47,254 nt of DNA, from assembly GCA_001768235.1 (NCBI GenBank), contig MENK01000015.1:1-47254 (forward strand). The letters are read 5' to 3'. Source of the stretch: Bacteroidetes bacterium GWB2_32_14. GTDB taxonomy: Bacteria > Bacteroidota > Bacteroidia > Bacteroidales > UBA12077. This document shows, piece by piece, positions 36,117 to 40,974 of this stretch. A program made the position numbers and the translations under genes. Position 1 is the first letter of the stretch. The number at the start of each line of letters is the position of its first letter. The notes beneath the pieces are model-generated. The model had not been told where the DNA came from. It saw nothing but the letters and a program-made list of their open reading frames with translations, and did no database searches.

Positions 36117-37070
36117 TTAATGTTTTTTTATGAAATTGTTTTTTACTTTTTCAATAAAAGAGACATATTTAAATTCCACGGGAGAATTTTTAATGCCTGG
36201 TTCTTTGTATCTTTCTGATATTTGGTCTTTTATGAATAAGCTGACATTTCCATGGCCTTCTTCGTACGTGTAAACAGTTTGTTTATCATCATCGTTTTTT
36301 TCAATTAAATAATCATTTTCGTTGTATGTATAACTTTCTGTTTCATCTGCAATCCATTCAGTATCGTTAAAGTAAAAGTAGTTAGCCTGAATAATTAAAT
36401 CTGAAGAATAATCGTAAATACATTTAAACCCTTCTTTCCAGGTATCCTGAAAATTAAAAAATTCAGTATAACTTATTAATTTGCCGTCAGTGTAACTAAA
36501 TGTTTCTTTATCTGTTTGATACCAGTCATCAGTATATTCTGAACTAAAACCTAAATATTCAGATATTTTACCATCGGTATAGTTTAGAATTTCCTTGTGG
36601 TAGATTTCCCATTGGTAGTTATCATTCATATAATAATACTCGGCCATCTCGCATTTGTCGCCGGAATAAATGTATTTTATTTTTTCTTCGCCAATATATG
36701 ATTGATCTTCATAATCCCAAGTAGTTAATTCTTTAACTAATTCATCGTCAAAAATAAAATCGAGTTTATAATTCAATACCCAGTTTTCGAGATCAAAATA
36801 ATACTCAAGCATAGTTGTATTGCCATTTGCATATTCAATTTCACTTTTCCTGTAGTTTTCCCATGTGCCACTATCACTAAGGTTATATTCGTTTACGGCA
36901 ATTAATTTTTCGTCGATATAATTAAACTCTGCTTTGTAGCTATTGTTTTCATAAGTTTCGATATATTCTTTAATTCTGTGAGAATTTTTTTTATTTACCG
37001 GTTCATCTTCATCACAAGATAAAAGGATAATTGCAAAATATGCAATAAGGATAAATAGATAGTTTTTCAT
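36117..37070 (-). CDS. Lipoprotein with 28-residue repeats
   Basis: A 317-residue lipoprotein (lipobox LLSC, C19) of no recognised enzymatic family. After an acidic linker it holds about seven degenerate units of 28 residues, marked by W70, W97, (Y125), W154, W183, W211 and W239 and by a recurring KxxxxYxxGKxxxY pattern, somewhat like the YD/RHS-type or DUF4595 repeat families. I start at ATG 37070; the longer frame adds 14 non-signal residues. It lies 10 bases after the small cydB-linked frame, so it may be co-transcribed with the oxidase genes or use an internal promoter. No sorting domain is present. Confidence 0.75.
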   Translation of the reverse strand: MKNYLFILIAYFAIILLSCDEDEPVNKKNSHRIKEYIETYENNSYKAEFNYIDEKLIAVNEYNLSDSGTWENYRKSEIEYANGNTTMLEYYFDLENWVLNYKLDFIFDDELVKELTTWDYEDQSYIGEEKIKYIYSGDKCEMAEYYYMNDNYQWEIYHKEILNYTDGKISEYLGFSSEYTDDWYQTDKETFSYTDGKLISYTEFFNFQDTWKEGFKCIYDYSSDLIIQANYFYFNDTEWIADETESYTYNENDYLIEKNDDDKQTVYTYEEGHGNVSLFIKDQISERYKEPGIKNSPVEFKYVSFIEKVKNNFIKKH

Positions 37071-37080
37071 AACAACGAGT

Positions 37081-37185
37081 TTACTTGTGTTTATCAAATT
37101 TGTGAATTGCAAAAACCGATAATTTATAGCTAACCCAAATAAATACAGGCCAACTGATTAACCAAATTATTTCTGTTAAATACAT
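37081..37185 (-). CDS. Small single-helix protein after cydB, candidate CydX-like subunit
   Basis: A 34-residue frame from ATG 37185 to TAA 37081, too short for a standard gene caller. It has an acidic residue near the start, one hydrophobic helix with two aromatic-rich patches (LISWPVFIWVSYKL) and a basic tail ending KFDKHK, giving an in-out orientation. Position is 30 bases after cydB on the same strand. Enterobacterial CydX is likewise a small single-helix Trp-rich protein encoded just after cydB that stabilises the haems of cytochrome bd; similarity here is in position, size and layout, not sequence. Homology to CydX is not claimed. Confidence 0.6.
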   Translation of the reverse strand: MYLTEIIWLISWPVFIWVSYKLSVFAIHKFDKHK

Positions 37186-37215: not shown

Positions 37216-38346
37216 TTAGTAAATATGAATATTTTCACCCATTTCGCCGGCATCAATTTTTTTATTATTAATTGATTTCCACGCATACCAGATGTAAGCT
37301 GCTACAAAAGGAACAAGTAAGGAAACATAGCTCATTATGGTTAATGTATATTTACTCGATGATGCATTTTCAATTGTAAGTGAACTTTGCAAATCATAAG
37401 TTGATGGATAAAAAGCGGTATTGTTGAGTCCCGCTATTAAAAATAATGCTAAAACGGTTAATATAGTTCCTGTTCCCGTGTACCAAATTCCATTTGTGCA
37501 ATTTTTCAAGATAGATTTACCAACTCCAAAAAGTACCAATAATACCCCTGCCAGAAAGATGATAAGTATGAATGGCATTTGTAAGAAGTTGTGTAAATAT
37601 TTAAAAGGCTCTAAAGTTACCTGTTTGGTAATTGAGTCGTAAGCAAAGCCATCAATAAAAAGTAACCAGACAACAAATGTTAAAAATAAAACCACAAATG
37701 GGATGGTGTTTATTATCAATTGTTTTTTAGCACGGGAAAAAATGTTTTCATCATTAATGGTATTCATAAAGTAGAGTATTCCAAGCACTCTTGCTAAAAA
37801 GAAAACAGCCAATCCAAGCGAAAGATTATGAATATTTAAAGCCAGTTCGAGACCGCGGGCAGCACCTTCCCACTTTGAAAAATTCATTTCATTAACCGAG
37901 AATTCAGAACCTGTAAAAAAAGTGGCAACGGCAGTTCCCAGGAGAATAGTTCCAAGAGCGCCATTTATAAACAGGAATATTTCGTAAGTTTTGGCTCCCA
38001 GAAAATTGTTTGGTTTCGAACGATATTCGTACGAGATGGCCTGAATTATAAACGCGAACAAAATTATCATCCAGACCCAGTATGCACCACTAAAACTGGT
38101 TGAATAAAATAACGGGAAAGAAGCAAAAAATGCTCCTCCAAAAGTAACGAGCGTGGTAAATGTAAATTCCCATTTTCGGCCTAAAGAATTAATCAACATG
38201 CGTCGTTCCATTTCAGTTTTCCCCAGTGTATAAATGAGTGTTTGCCCGCCCTGAACAAACATGAGGAAAACCAAAACAGAACCCAGCAGCGAGATAATTA
38301 CCCACCAGTATTGTTGTAATGCCAAGTGTGTTAATGATTCAACCAT
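37216..38346 (-). CDS. cydB: Cytochrome bd ubiquinol oxidase subunit II
   Basis: A 376-residue membrane protein with about eight to nine helices, non-catalytic partner of CydA in the microaerobic terminal oxidase. QQYWWVIISLLGSVLVFLMFVQGGQTL is the N-terminal family pattern, with RKWEFTFTTLVTFGGAFFASFP following. I choose ATG 38346, which begins 1 base after the cydA stop and is preceded by GGAGG; a longer start at 38361 would add five residues and overlap cydA by 14 bases. Second structural gene of the DUF4492-cydA-cydB unit. Confidence 0.92.
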   Translation of the reverse strand: MVESLTHLALQQYWWVIISLLGSVLVFLMFVQGGQTLIYTLGKTEMERRMLINSLGRKWEFTFTTLVTFGGAFFASFPLFYSTSFSGAYWVWMIILFAFIIQAISYEYRSKPNNFLGAKTYEIFLFINGALGTILLGTAVATFFTGSEFSVNEMNFSKWEGAARGLELALNIHNLSLGLAVFFLARVLGILYFMNTINDENIFSRAKKQLIINTIPFVVLFLTFVVWLLFIDGFAYDSITKQVTLEPFKYLHNFLQMPFILIIFLAGVLLVLFGVGKSILKNCTNGIWYTGTGTILTVLALFLIAGLNNTAFYPSTYDLQSSLTIENASSSKYTLTIMSYVSLLVPFVAAYIWYAWKSINNKKIDAGEMGENIHIY

Positions 38347-38347
38347 A

Positions 38348-39913
38348 TTAATGTCCTCCATCTTTAGGTCCGATTTGAATTTGTTTTGTCATAATTTTAA
38401 TTTCCGCGATGAGCAGGGTTGTAAATATCACCATGAACATCCAGAATGTTATTTGAACGGCACTGGCATCAATTTGAGAAACGGCAGCAACTGTAGGAAG
38501 CAAATCCTGAATTGTCCACGGTTGGCGGCCTACTTCAGCAACAATCCATCCCGACATGGATGCAATATAAGCCAAAGGTATAGTTAGTATTGAGATTCGC
38601 AATAGCCATTTCTTAGGTTCAAGATTGTTCTTGTAAGTAAAAAATAATACCAGGGTAAAAAACAGGATAAAGTAAAATCCTAAAGCTACCATAATGTGAA
38701 AACTATAAAAGGTCATGGGTACATTGGGGATAATACTTTTTGGATCGTTCAGGAAACCATAACCGAAATATTTAAAATTATCCTTAAAAACGATTAGTGA
38801 TTTATCCATTAATTGTTGGTCGTTATTATCTTTAGCTGTTTTATAGTCGTGAAGAGCTGCGATAGCAGTTTTACCAATTTCAATTTTTTGTTCGGCCGAT
38901 GGAGCAATTTGTTTATTTCCTTTATTCTCGGAATATTCATATTTCCCTTCAATTAAGTCTGTTACGCCCGGAACAAATGCATTGGCATTTCTGTAACCTA
39001 AGAGAGAAAGCATTTTAGGGATTTCAAACTTAAACACAAAGGCGTCTTTTTGATCGTTATATTCTTTGCCTGGAGTGAGCACGCCAATAACAATCAGCCC
39101 TGCACCTTCAGAGCCTTTGTACAGGCCTTCCATTGCAGCAAGTTTCATGGGCTGTTTTTGGGCAACCTGGTATGCAGAGCCATCGCCAGTATATACTAAG
39201 AACAAACTACTTAACAAGCCAAATACAGAGGCAATTATAATACTTCGTTTTGCAAGGATTTTTTCCCGCCCTTTTAATAAAAACCATGCACTTACACCAA
39301 TAACAAATATGGAGGCCAGCACGTAGCCAGATGTAATGGTATGAAGGAATTTATTAATAGCAATTGGCGATAAAAACACTTCCCAGAAATTCAACATTTC
39401 GTTTCGGGCAGTATCGGGATTGAAGTGCATCCCTACAGGAGATTGCATCCATCCGTTTGCAACGAGAATCCATAATGCAGACAGATTTGAACCAAAGGCA
39501 ACAAGCCAGGTTGATAATAAATGAAATTTCTTACTTACTTTATTCCATCCAAAAAACATGACTGCAATAAAAGTTGACTCGAGGAAAAATGCCATGATAC
39601 CTTCAATGGCCAGGGGAGCCCCGAAAATGTCGCCAACGAACCATGAGTAATTCGACCAGTTAGTGCCGAATTCGAATTCAAGGATTATACCTGTTGCAAC
39701 TCCTATGGCAAAATTTATTCCGAATATGGTCATCCAAAACTTGGTTATTTTTTTCCATTCAGGATCGCCGGTTTTAACGTAAATAGTTTCAAAAAAGGCT
39801 ATCAAAAAAGTTATTCCCAGGGTTAACGGAACAAATAGCCAATGATACATAGCCGTGAGTGCAAATTGTGCTCTCGACCAGTTTACCAGTGCTGTGTCTA
39901 AGTGTTCAATCAT
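38348..39913 (-). CDS. cydA: Cytochrome bd ubiquinol oxidase subunit I
   Basis: A 521-residue quinol-oxidising, haem-carrying subunit. H24, E104, E112 and H191 line up, with a constant offset of 5, with E. coli CydA H19, E99, E107 and H186 (haem ligands and proton path), and the later FHIMVALG supplies the Met ligand. GWIVAEVGRQPWTI near the C-terminus is the classic CydA block. The Q-loop is of moderate length. It overlaps DUF4492 upstream by 8 bases, so the genes are translationally coupled. Function: oxygen reduction with high affinity, protecting an otherwise anaerobic or microaerobic metabolism. Confidence 0.95.
   Translation of the reverse strand: MIEHLDTALVNWSRAQFALTAMYHWLFVPLTLGITFLIAFFETIYVKTGDPEWKKITKFWMTIFGINFAIGVATGIILEFEFGTNWSNYSWFVGDIFGAPLAIEGIMAFFLESTFIAVMFFGWNKVSKKFHLLSTWLVAFGSNLSALWILVANGWMQSPVGMHFNPDTARNEMLNFWEVFLSPIAINKFLHTITSGYVLASIFVIGVSAWFLLKGREKILAKRSIIIASVFGLLSSLFLVYTGDGSAYQVAQKQPMKLAAMEGLYKGSEGAGLIVIGVLTPGKEYNDQKDAFVFKFEIPKMLSLLGYRNANAFVPGVTDLIEGKYEYSENKGNKQIAPSAEQKIEIGKTAIAALHDYKTAKDNNDQQLMDKSLIVFKDNFKYFGYGFLNDPKSIIPNVPMTFYSFHIMVALGFYFILFFTLVLFFTYKNNLEPKKWLLRISILTIPLAYIASMSGWIVAEVGRQPWTIQDLLPTVAAVSQIDASAVQITFWMFMVIFTTLLIAEIKIMTKQIQIGPKDGGH
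38355..38359 (-). promoter_or_regulatory. Shine-Dalgarno-like site selecting the cydB start
   Basis: GGAGG on the minus strand, 8 bases before ATG 38346. Such sites are rare in this window, so it is taken as support for the shorter cydB start. Confidence 0.4.
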
Positions 39914-40142
39914 TGTCAGTATTTTTAGGATTTGTTAATTGCTCAATTACATAATCGCTTCGTTCTTCATCTGTTTTGAATTTTGAATTTAAAAAATCAG
40001 GGAAGAAGAAAAGTTTTAATATTGCAAACATGATAAAAAGCTTGATAATAATTATTACCCAAAGCTTTTTTCCAACGGTCATACTTCTAAAACCTTCGTA
40101 GTAGAATAGAAATATTTTTTGTATAATATTTTTATGAGCCAT
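39906..40142 (-). CDS. DUF4492 small membrane protein of the cyd operon
   Basis: A 78-residue protein with one membrane helix (about 26-48, KLWVIIIIKLFIMFAILKLF) preceded by GFRSMTVGK, the DUF4492 pattern commonly found just upstream of cydA in Bacteroidota. I start at ATG 40142; the longer frame begins with TTG three codons upstream and lies near the promoter. It overlaps cydA by 8 bases. Probably an accessory or assembly factor of cytochrome bd; no direct evidence is known to me. Confidence 0.82.
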   Translation of the reverse strand: MAHKNIIQKIFLFYYEGFRSMTVGKKLWVIIIIKLFIMFAILKLFFFPDFLNSKFKTDEERSDYVIEQLTNPKNTDND

Positions 40143-40158
40143 GTTTTTCAACCTTACC

Positions 40159-40287: not shown

Positions 40288-40926
40288 TTAGTTATCTTTT
40301 TGGGGATTAAATAAATGAATAAAACCAGTTTGTGCATCTATATTGGGGTCGTCTGAAGTTAATATATAATAATAAACTCCTTCGCTCATTATTGAACCTG
40401 AAGAATTGCGCCCATCCCAAACAATTGTAGGTGATTTTATTTTAATTACCTGAATTCCTGTGCGACTAAAAATTGTAAATTCCAATACGGTTACACCATC
40501 ATAAAAAACAGTGAATAAATCGTTCACGTTGTCACCATTTGGGGAAAATACATTGGGAACTTTAATCAGGGCGGGCTTTGTTAAATTAATCGTTCTGGAA
40601 AATGTGAAATTTGTACTTGTTGATTTTTCAAGAACGGTTAAGTCAATGTTGTATGTACCATCTTCAACAAAATTATAAACTGCATAAGGCAATGTGTCAA
40701 TTAGCGGGGCTGAATCGCCAGACCATTTAAAAGAATAACCGGAAAGACTGGTTAAGTTAAACTCACTCGTATCACTACTCTCAACATATAATGCACTAAC
40801 ATATGCACTTAAATAAGTCTCAGGAAACTGGATTCTAATATCTATGGTATCAATATTAGTCTGAGCAATTACTTTATTGGTTAATAAGAAGAATGCTACA
40901 CAAATCAGAAGTTTTACCTTTTCCAT
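40288..40926 (-). CDS. Small T9SS type B (CHU_C) secreted protein
   Basis: A 212-residue exported protein: signal peptide 1-21 (VIA/QTN), a PKD-like beta domain (about 25-118) and a type B T9SS sorting domain from about residue 123 to 205 (VPNVFSPNGDNVNDLF, then VWDGRNSSG, EGVYYYIL). Type B cargo is normally a very large adhesin next to a porP/sprF gene; here it is short and no such partner lies nearby. I start at ATG 40926, which yields a proper signal peptide. It is 48 bases after the AI-2E permease gene. Confidence 0.85.
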   Translation of the reverse strand: MEKVKLLICVAFFLLTNKVIAQTNIDTIDIRIQFPETYLSAYVSALYVESSDTSEFNLTSLSGYSFKWSGDSAPLIDTLPYAVYNFVEDGTYNIDLTVLEKSTSTNFTFSRTINLTKPALIKVPNVFSPNGDNVNDLFTVFYDGVTVLEFTIFSRTGIQVIKIKSPTIVWDGRNSSGSIMSEGVYYYILTSDDPNIDAQTGFIHLFNPQKDN

Positions 40927-40974
40927 TAAATATTTTATTACACACGTAAATATATAAAATACCATCAGAAAACC

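Follow-up and report, generated by a model that had tools for sequence, protein, structure and literature searches.

A candidate CydY/CioY-family gene at the end of the cytochrome bd oxidase operon in Bacteroidales

The window, i.e., the whole 47,254-nucleotide stretch of DNA analysed here, carries on its minus strand a cytochrome bd oxidase operon that runs from a DUF4492 gene through cydA and cydB to a small open reading frame, its last gene (Table 1). The small frame encodes a product of 34 residues, MYLTEIIWLISWPVFIWVSYKLSVFAIHKFDKHK, and lies on the same strand as cydB, 30 nt past its stop codon, which ends at 37216. CydA aligns over residues 9-517 with residues 4-502 of E. coli CydA, and the alignment runs through the Q-loop region. 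Searching Pfam and NCBIfam with the small product listed zero models at E ≤ 10, unlike its three operon neighbours, each of which is recognised by Pfam, and a search of the window's own genome with the small protein returned a single match. AlphaFold2, run on the single sequence, predicted one helix over residues 2-33 with a mean pLDDT of 91 (a monomer model, silent on partners). In line with these results, a preliminary description of the locus had read an ATG-to-TAA frame of 34 residues located 30 bases past cydB on the same strand, with one helix, and had placed a DUF4492 gene at the opposite end of the operon.

Table 1. The oxidase operon and its flanking genes in the window
Feature	Position	Strand	Evidence or remark
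Lipoprotein-like gene	36117..37070	-	YD-repeat similarity just below cut-off
cydY/cioY homologue, 34-residue single-helix membrane protein (putative)	37081..37185	-	ORF of 34 codons, ATG at 37185 to TAA at 37083-37081; conservation; profiles; pN/pS; AlphaFold2
cydB, cytochrome bd subunit II	37216..38361	-	PF02322, E 4.4e-70; TIGR00203 above cut-off
cydA, cytochrome bd subunit I	38348..39913	-	Pfam; residues 9-517 align with long-Q-loop E. coli CydA
DUF4492 protein, first gene of the operon	39906..40151	-	PF14899, E 2.3e-31; first listed start codon TTG at 40151
Type IX secretion (CHU_C) protein, upstream of the operon	40288..40965	-	

A terminator scan found zero terminator-like sites between cydB and the small frame. 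No Shine-Dalgarno-like motif was seen by eye in the 25 nt 5' of the ATG. This test is weak: Bacteroidota make little use of the motif, and its lack was not treated as defining when the gene was compared with known families. Promoter-like sites were scanned for as well and occurred at chance level (22 found, 20.5 expected). A perfect TTGACA-17-TATAAT site lies at 40700-40672 on the minus strand, inside the CHU_C gene; Bacteroidota promoters differ from this type.

The small frame is a real, conserved gene under purifying selection. Its protein was found at E ≤ 0.1 in 33 of 59 genomes (the window's own counted), and 18 of the 19 other genomes of the same genus gave a match, the sole miss being a genome listed as 79% complete. 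At all 30 fetched loci, again counting the window's, the frame lies 3' of cydB on the same strand, with a gap of 10-86 nt at 29 of them and of 218 nt at the last. Among 17 copies from the genus (counting the window's but not the divergent L025 and L026), pN/pS was 0.17 (pS 0.641, pN 0.111; 136 pairs), and differences at codon positions 1, 2 and 3 amounted to 0.169, 0.083 and 0.418, i.e., an excess at position 3. An ATG start was present in 84/84 copies, a weak count, as copies were chosen at an ATG and some genomes were repeated. The preliminary description had proposed to look for loss or breakage of the frame in relatives and for constraint at synonymous sites; among close relatives the frame persists, and the substitutions follow the pattern of a coding gene. 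Frames of 25-40 codons are common across the window, but the same-genus matches, the pN/pS value, the codon-position pattern and the profile results given below rule out a chance frame, to which we assign a negligible probability. Within the window's genus, two genomes (G014 and G006) carry divergent pairs of cydB and the small gene (L025 and L026), with cydB 65-66% identical as against 80-84% in the others, and another (G010) holds a second, weaker small-protein match; both observations hint at operon exchange.

Sequence places the small protein in the CydY/CioY family, as its Bacteroidales member. The name CydY goes back to Allen et al. in 2014, who gave it to proteins from long-Q-loop operons without cydX in epsilon- and deltaproteobacteria (PMC4325964). 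Its C. jejuni counterpart, CioY, is described as a protein of 34 aa encoded in the 3'UTR of cydB, with conserved W, P and Y residues, Ribo-seq support and, as reported in 2025, co-immunoprecipitation with CioA (PMC11955535). We reached named Campylobacterota genomes by a 16S signature, located cydB in them with PF02322, and read 61 distinct loci downstream (12 of the 20 records of the initial set had no cydB, and 10 of 65 cydB places were not fetched). A profile built from 30 Bacteroidales sequences only matched at the 3' end of cydB in 54 of these 61 loci at E ≤ 1e-3, leaving seven without a match at that threshold; 53 of the 54 frames overlap the cydB stop or sit just past it, and one lies 454 nt on. 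The best frame elsewhere scored E 0.37 among 10,769 frames (some loci doubled), three stronger matches that fell outside the position filter all being at the 3' side of cydB nonetheless. A Campylobacterota profile, which is partly self-fitting, recognised the frame in 60/61 loci, the exception (L303) having no recognisable frame. Aligning the Bacteroidales and Campylobacterota profiles with hhalign gave a probability of 99 and E 3.2e-18; because the second set was chosen with the first profile and is thus not independent, the 54/61 result is the stronger evidence for family identity.

Across 52 members (31 Bacteroidales, 21 Campylobacterota), W12, P13, I16 and Y20 each occur at 90% or more. 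The C. coli protein, 34 residues long, keeps the W, P and Y and so fits C. jejuni CioY as described in PMC11955535, a likeness drawn from the description and not from the C. jejuni letters. Bacteroidales and Campylobacterota members share a small ORF directly 3' of cydB, a long-Q-loop CydA, DUF4492 upstream, one helix and the conserved W, P and Y, and they are similar in length (30-56 residues, median 36, and 31-61, median 35.5, respectively). They differ in how often a W-x3-W-P motif is kept (33/54 sequences of the order survey below versus 13/24 of the Campylobacterota set), in tail charge, which is more basic in Bacteroidales (mean +2.45 versus +1.27), and in an Asn that is near-invariant in Campylobacterota CydY and not common to Bacteroidales. 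As in the operons of the 2014 set, the ORF in the cydX place of the window operon matches no CydX model (that ORF alone was scanned), whereas the strong ribosome binding site reported for that set (PMC4325964) has no Shine-Dalgarno-like counterpart visible by eye in the window. The preliminary description had proposed a CydX-like small oxidase subunit: the subunit reading is supported, and the 54 Campylobacterota matches correct the assignment to CydY/CioY. The family itself is already known; in the open-licence literature, supplements aside, we found no published report of CydY in Bacteroidota, and neither its distribution in Bacteroidales nor the common four-gene operon was found in print there. 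At two Campylobacterota loci (L310 and L314), the CydY frame 3' of cydB has a long N-terminal extension resembling a signal peptide and linker before the helix, and the cydB open frame is also longer, at 407 codons.

The four-gene operon DUF4492-cydA-cydB-cydY is common to Bacteroidales and Campylobacterota: DUF4492 precedes cydA at 40/40 Campylobacterota loci with upstream DNA. Allen et al. noted that each of these CydX-less operons has a hydrophobic protein, left without a name, encoded upstream of cydAB (PMC4325964), and since DUF4492 occupies that place at all 40 loci, the two are probably the same. Judging by size and position, DUF4492 is probably also the CydW of P. gingivalis (PMC4668044), which belongs to the same operon type and is a different protein from CydY. 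In the order of the window, DUF4492 occurs in 87 of 149 genomes, including loci without CydY. A DUF4492 search of plasmid records yielded one record and no Campylobacterota.

To describe the distribution of CydY, we surveyed these 149 genomes, of which 103 have PF02322, at 108 places. We examined 104 of these places, leaving out G545's second cydB together with N-terminal pieces from G530, G476 and G486, and set aside 13 as another type (10 at ≤30% identity to the window's CydB, three without a match). The ten distant copies (L032-L040 and L045), present in some genomes of the order, have no CydY match. Among the 91 window-type loci, the CydY profile (E < 1e-3) matched within 600 nt of cydB in 54, or in 44 of 81 when the 10 loci from profile-source genomes were omitted. 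A genome-wide search of the 37 genomes with no copy within 600 nt revealed a CydY copy 605 nt 3' of cydB in G514 and a CydY-like copy on another contig in G488; among the remaining 35 genomes, matches were doubtful in three (E 0.008-0.08, one in a stop-containing frame) and missing in 32. Two of the 37 loci have less than 600 nt of downstream DNA (L068, 238 nt; L087, 513 nt). In G488, the CydY-like frame (L345) has no match to the window's cydA, cydB or DUF4492 within 1.5 kb, and the genome's cydB is without an adjoining copy, so that L345 may be an unlinked cydY. Near cydB, CydY is accordingly missing from 36 of the 91 loci, and it is also missing 3' of cydB in five named records, Parabacteroides distasonis, Bacteroides ovatus, B. 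finegoldii, Phocaeicola massiliensis and Prevotella nigrescens; the enzyme evidently can do without it. A replacement helix was sought in the CydY-less loci, where a handful of hydrophobic ATG frames lie on the same strand within 400 nt, with no common sequence seen by eye.

Beyond the order, we sampled 395 genomes of the phylum, with the best 15-19 candidates scored in most listed genomes. The small-protein profile matched the window's genome only, in a sample with few genomes of the same order, and DUF4492 was found in six, the window's genome among them, none of which lies outside its order. These results fit, without proving, a confinement of both small proteins to this operon type, in a sample that may include genomes without cydAB. 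The preliminary description had suggested a Bacteroidota counterpart of the CydX-type subunits, to be sought after cydB in other genomes. This survives as a small-subunit reading and as a conserved frame in 54 of the order's 91 loci, but not as a feature general to the phylum or even to the order, given one match in 395 genomes and the 36 loci where CydY is missing near cydB.

We then mapped presence and absence onto trees of CydA and CydB. A quick CydA tree was built with CydX-type enzymes as its root. In it, 21 of the 33 absent rows, the five named records among them, form one clade (SH-aLRT 100), the remainder being scattered, and the label requires 10 changes, seven of them forced by starred branches. 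In the CydB tree, 28 of 41 absent rows fall on one weakly supported side together with two present rows, and the label requires 14 changes, five of them forced. The label clusters in either tree (0/500 shuffles were as low). Rows were labelled before the genome-wide search, such that G514 (L043, CydB tree) and G488 (L137, in either tree) are treated as lacking CydY; three too-short rows were omitted from the CydB tree, and 16 of 40 Campylobacterota rows were used in the CydA tree. In both, rows of the order surround the named records of Bacteroides, Parabacteroides, Phocaeicola and Prevotella, which is why we call the order Bacteroidales here. On the simplest reading, CydY was lost once, long ago, in the Bacteroides group and several times separately elsewhere, regain or transfer being also conceivable. 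This pattern agrees with a study of P. gingivalis, a species outside our sample, which reports no cydX in the genomes of that species and no cydY or cydZ immediately past cydAB (PMC4668044).

Campylobacterota are nested among the order's rows in the CydB tree but not in the outgroup-rooted CydA tree, and given this disagreement we claim no direction of operon transfer between the phyla. At one locus (L098, in G050), CydB groups with Campylobacterota (100/99) and CydA does not, possibly owing to recombination or transfer. In the quick CydA tree, which included no short-Q-loop rows, the seven CydX-type rows split from the 90 others (SH-aLRT 100), placing the window's CydA in a clade beside the CydX-type CydA.

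How CydY relates to CydX itself was assessed with models, profiles and residue patterns. The CydX models TIGR02106, NF011333 and PF08173 listed 0/52 CydY members at E ≤ 10, while 3/3 known CydX/AppX proteins used as controls matched them, and CydX proper was rejected on this ground. The two families share a gene 3' of cydB, a single helix, W-x3-W near the N-terminus and, in an ungapped register, an acidic residue at the membrane exit; CydY lacks the N-terminal M-W-Y-x2-W-x2-G (M-W-Y start and Gly9), which is invariant in seven CydX/AppX rows. It is conceivable that CydY is a diverged homologue, the two forming one ancient subunit family. Against seven CydX/AppX sequences, hhalign gave the Campylobacterota profile a probability of 54 and the combined profile 60, scores reached by 2/200 and 1/200 column shuffles respectively, and the Campylobacterota alignment is ungapped over 29 columns, pairing W-x3-W and Glu25; the Bacteroidales profile alone, however, reached 5, matched by 9/200 shuffles, and the small proteins, searched with a CydX profile, reached E 0.007 at best. 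Together with the missing curated matches and the missing M-W-Y start and Gly9, these values leave common ancestry possible though doubtful; it is in any case compatible with our preferred explanation, a CydY/CioY-family subunit. In the ungapped register, the residue facing CydX Glu25 (a float at the cytoplasmic end, according to PMC6853902) is a Glu in C. coli CydY and would by extension be Asp31 in the window protein; this correspondence, like the link between CydY and CydX, is suggestive. Other single-helix small subunits of bd oxidases are CydZ, CydS and CydH (PMC4325964, PMC8951039). CydZ (DUF2474), CydS (Geobacillus) and CydH/YnhF resemble CydY in having one helix, and CydZ differs in belonging to short-Q-loop operons (PMC4325964). 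None of these families appeared in scans of the 52 members, in libraries that may not hold CydS and CydH models, and a PDB sequence search with the small-protein profile returned zero matches at E ≤ 10.

Taken together, these results make it very probable that the small frame is the CydY/CioY-family gene of the window's order, last in DUF4492-cydA-cydB-cydY, whose one-helix product most likely lies along CydA in the place of CydX, clamping the haem-carrying helices during assembly. Charge is higher C-terminal than N-terminal of the helix in 71/74 Bacteroidales and 37/48 Campylobacterota sequences, which by the positive-inside rule argues for a cytoplasmic C-terminus. In the structure of E. coli bd-I, CydX is described as a clamp for helix bundles with its hydrophilic C-terminus in the cytoplasm (PMC6853902), contrary to predictions of a periplasmic C-terminus cited in an older paper (PMC5322542). 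By analogy, CydY would cross the membrane once, its N-terminus towards the periplasm and its basic C-terminus in the cytoplasm; its helix would run along CydA at the E. coli CydX position, its W-x3-W-P end may come near haem b558 and the Q-loop, and it would hold the haem-carrying helices in place during assembly, as CydX does. We infer CydA binding and the clamp role from the co-immunoprecipitation of C. jejuni CioY and the E. coli CydX structure, and presume transcription and translation in this organism.

The CydY-family subunit could instead occupy another site on the oxidase, e.g., a CydH-like one where it would block oxygen entry, with DUF4492 in the CydX-like role. CydH of E. coli is indeed an additional single helix, placed between CydA TM1 and TM9 (PMC8951039), and the operon is accompanied by DUF4492 more widely than by CydY, CydY-less loci included; yet the AlphaFold-multimer pose reported for C. 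jejuni CioY sits on CioA much as CydX does on CydA (PMC11955535), and the ungapped 29-column alignment of the Campylobacterota profile with CydX also speaks for the CydX place, so that we consider this alternative improbable. Still less probable, and very much so, is a small protein co-transcribed with cydAB in a different role, such as regulation or service as a translated leader to the gene that follows. The lipoprotein-like gene does begin just 10 nt past the small frame, but in the fetched flanks of 136 oriented loci a relative of it (34% identity) was present at one other locus only (L012), which speaks strongly against a translational leader for it and indicates that the small frame belongs with cydB, beside which it stays in two phyla.

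Finding this family in Bacteroidales extends to a second phylum a small protein whose C. jejuni form has a known binding partner, and ties it to DUF4492 as a partner gene. Gene callers easily overlook small oxidase subunits, which matter for judging the completeness of a purified bd oxidase; the CydY profile can be used to annotate the gene, and the sampled genomes of the order are now sorted into CydY-bearing and CydY-less ones, which renders testable what the enzyme loses or changes without a CydX-like helix. Tentatively, and with rather more doubt than confidence, we propose that Bacteroidales and Campylobacterota share a distinct class of four-subunit long-Q-loop bd oxidase, in which DUF4492 (CydW) and CydY would both be structural, with CydY in the CydX site, and that an ancestor of Bacteroides, Parabacteroides, Prevotella and their relatives lost CydY and kept DUF4492, their enzyme then compensating in CydA or DUF4492. 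If this four-subunit class and the loss of CydY hold true, they would amount to a natural experiment on what one-helix subunits are for.
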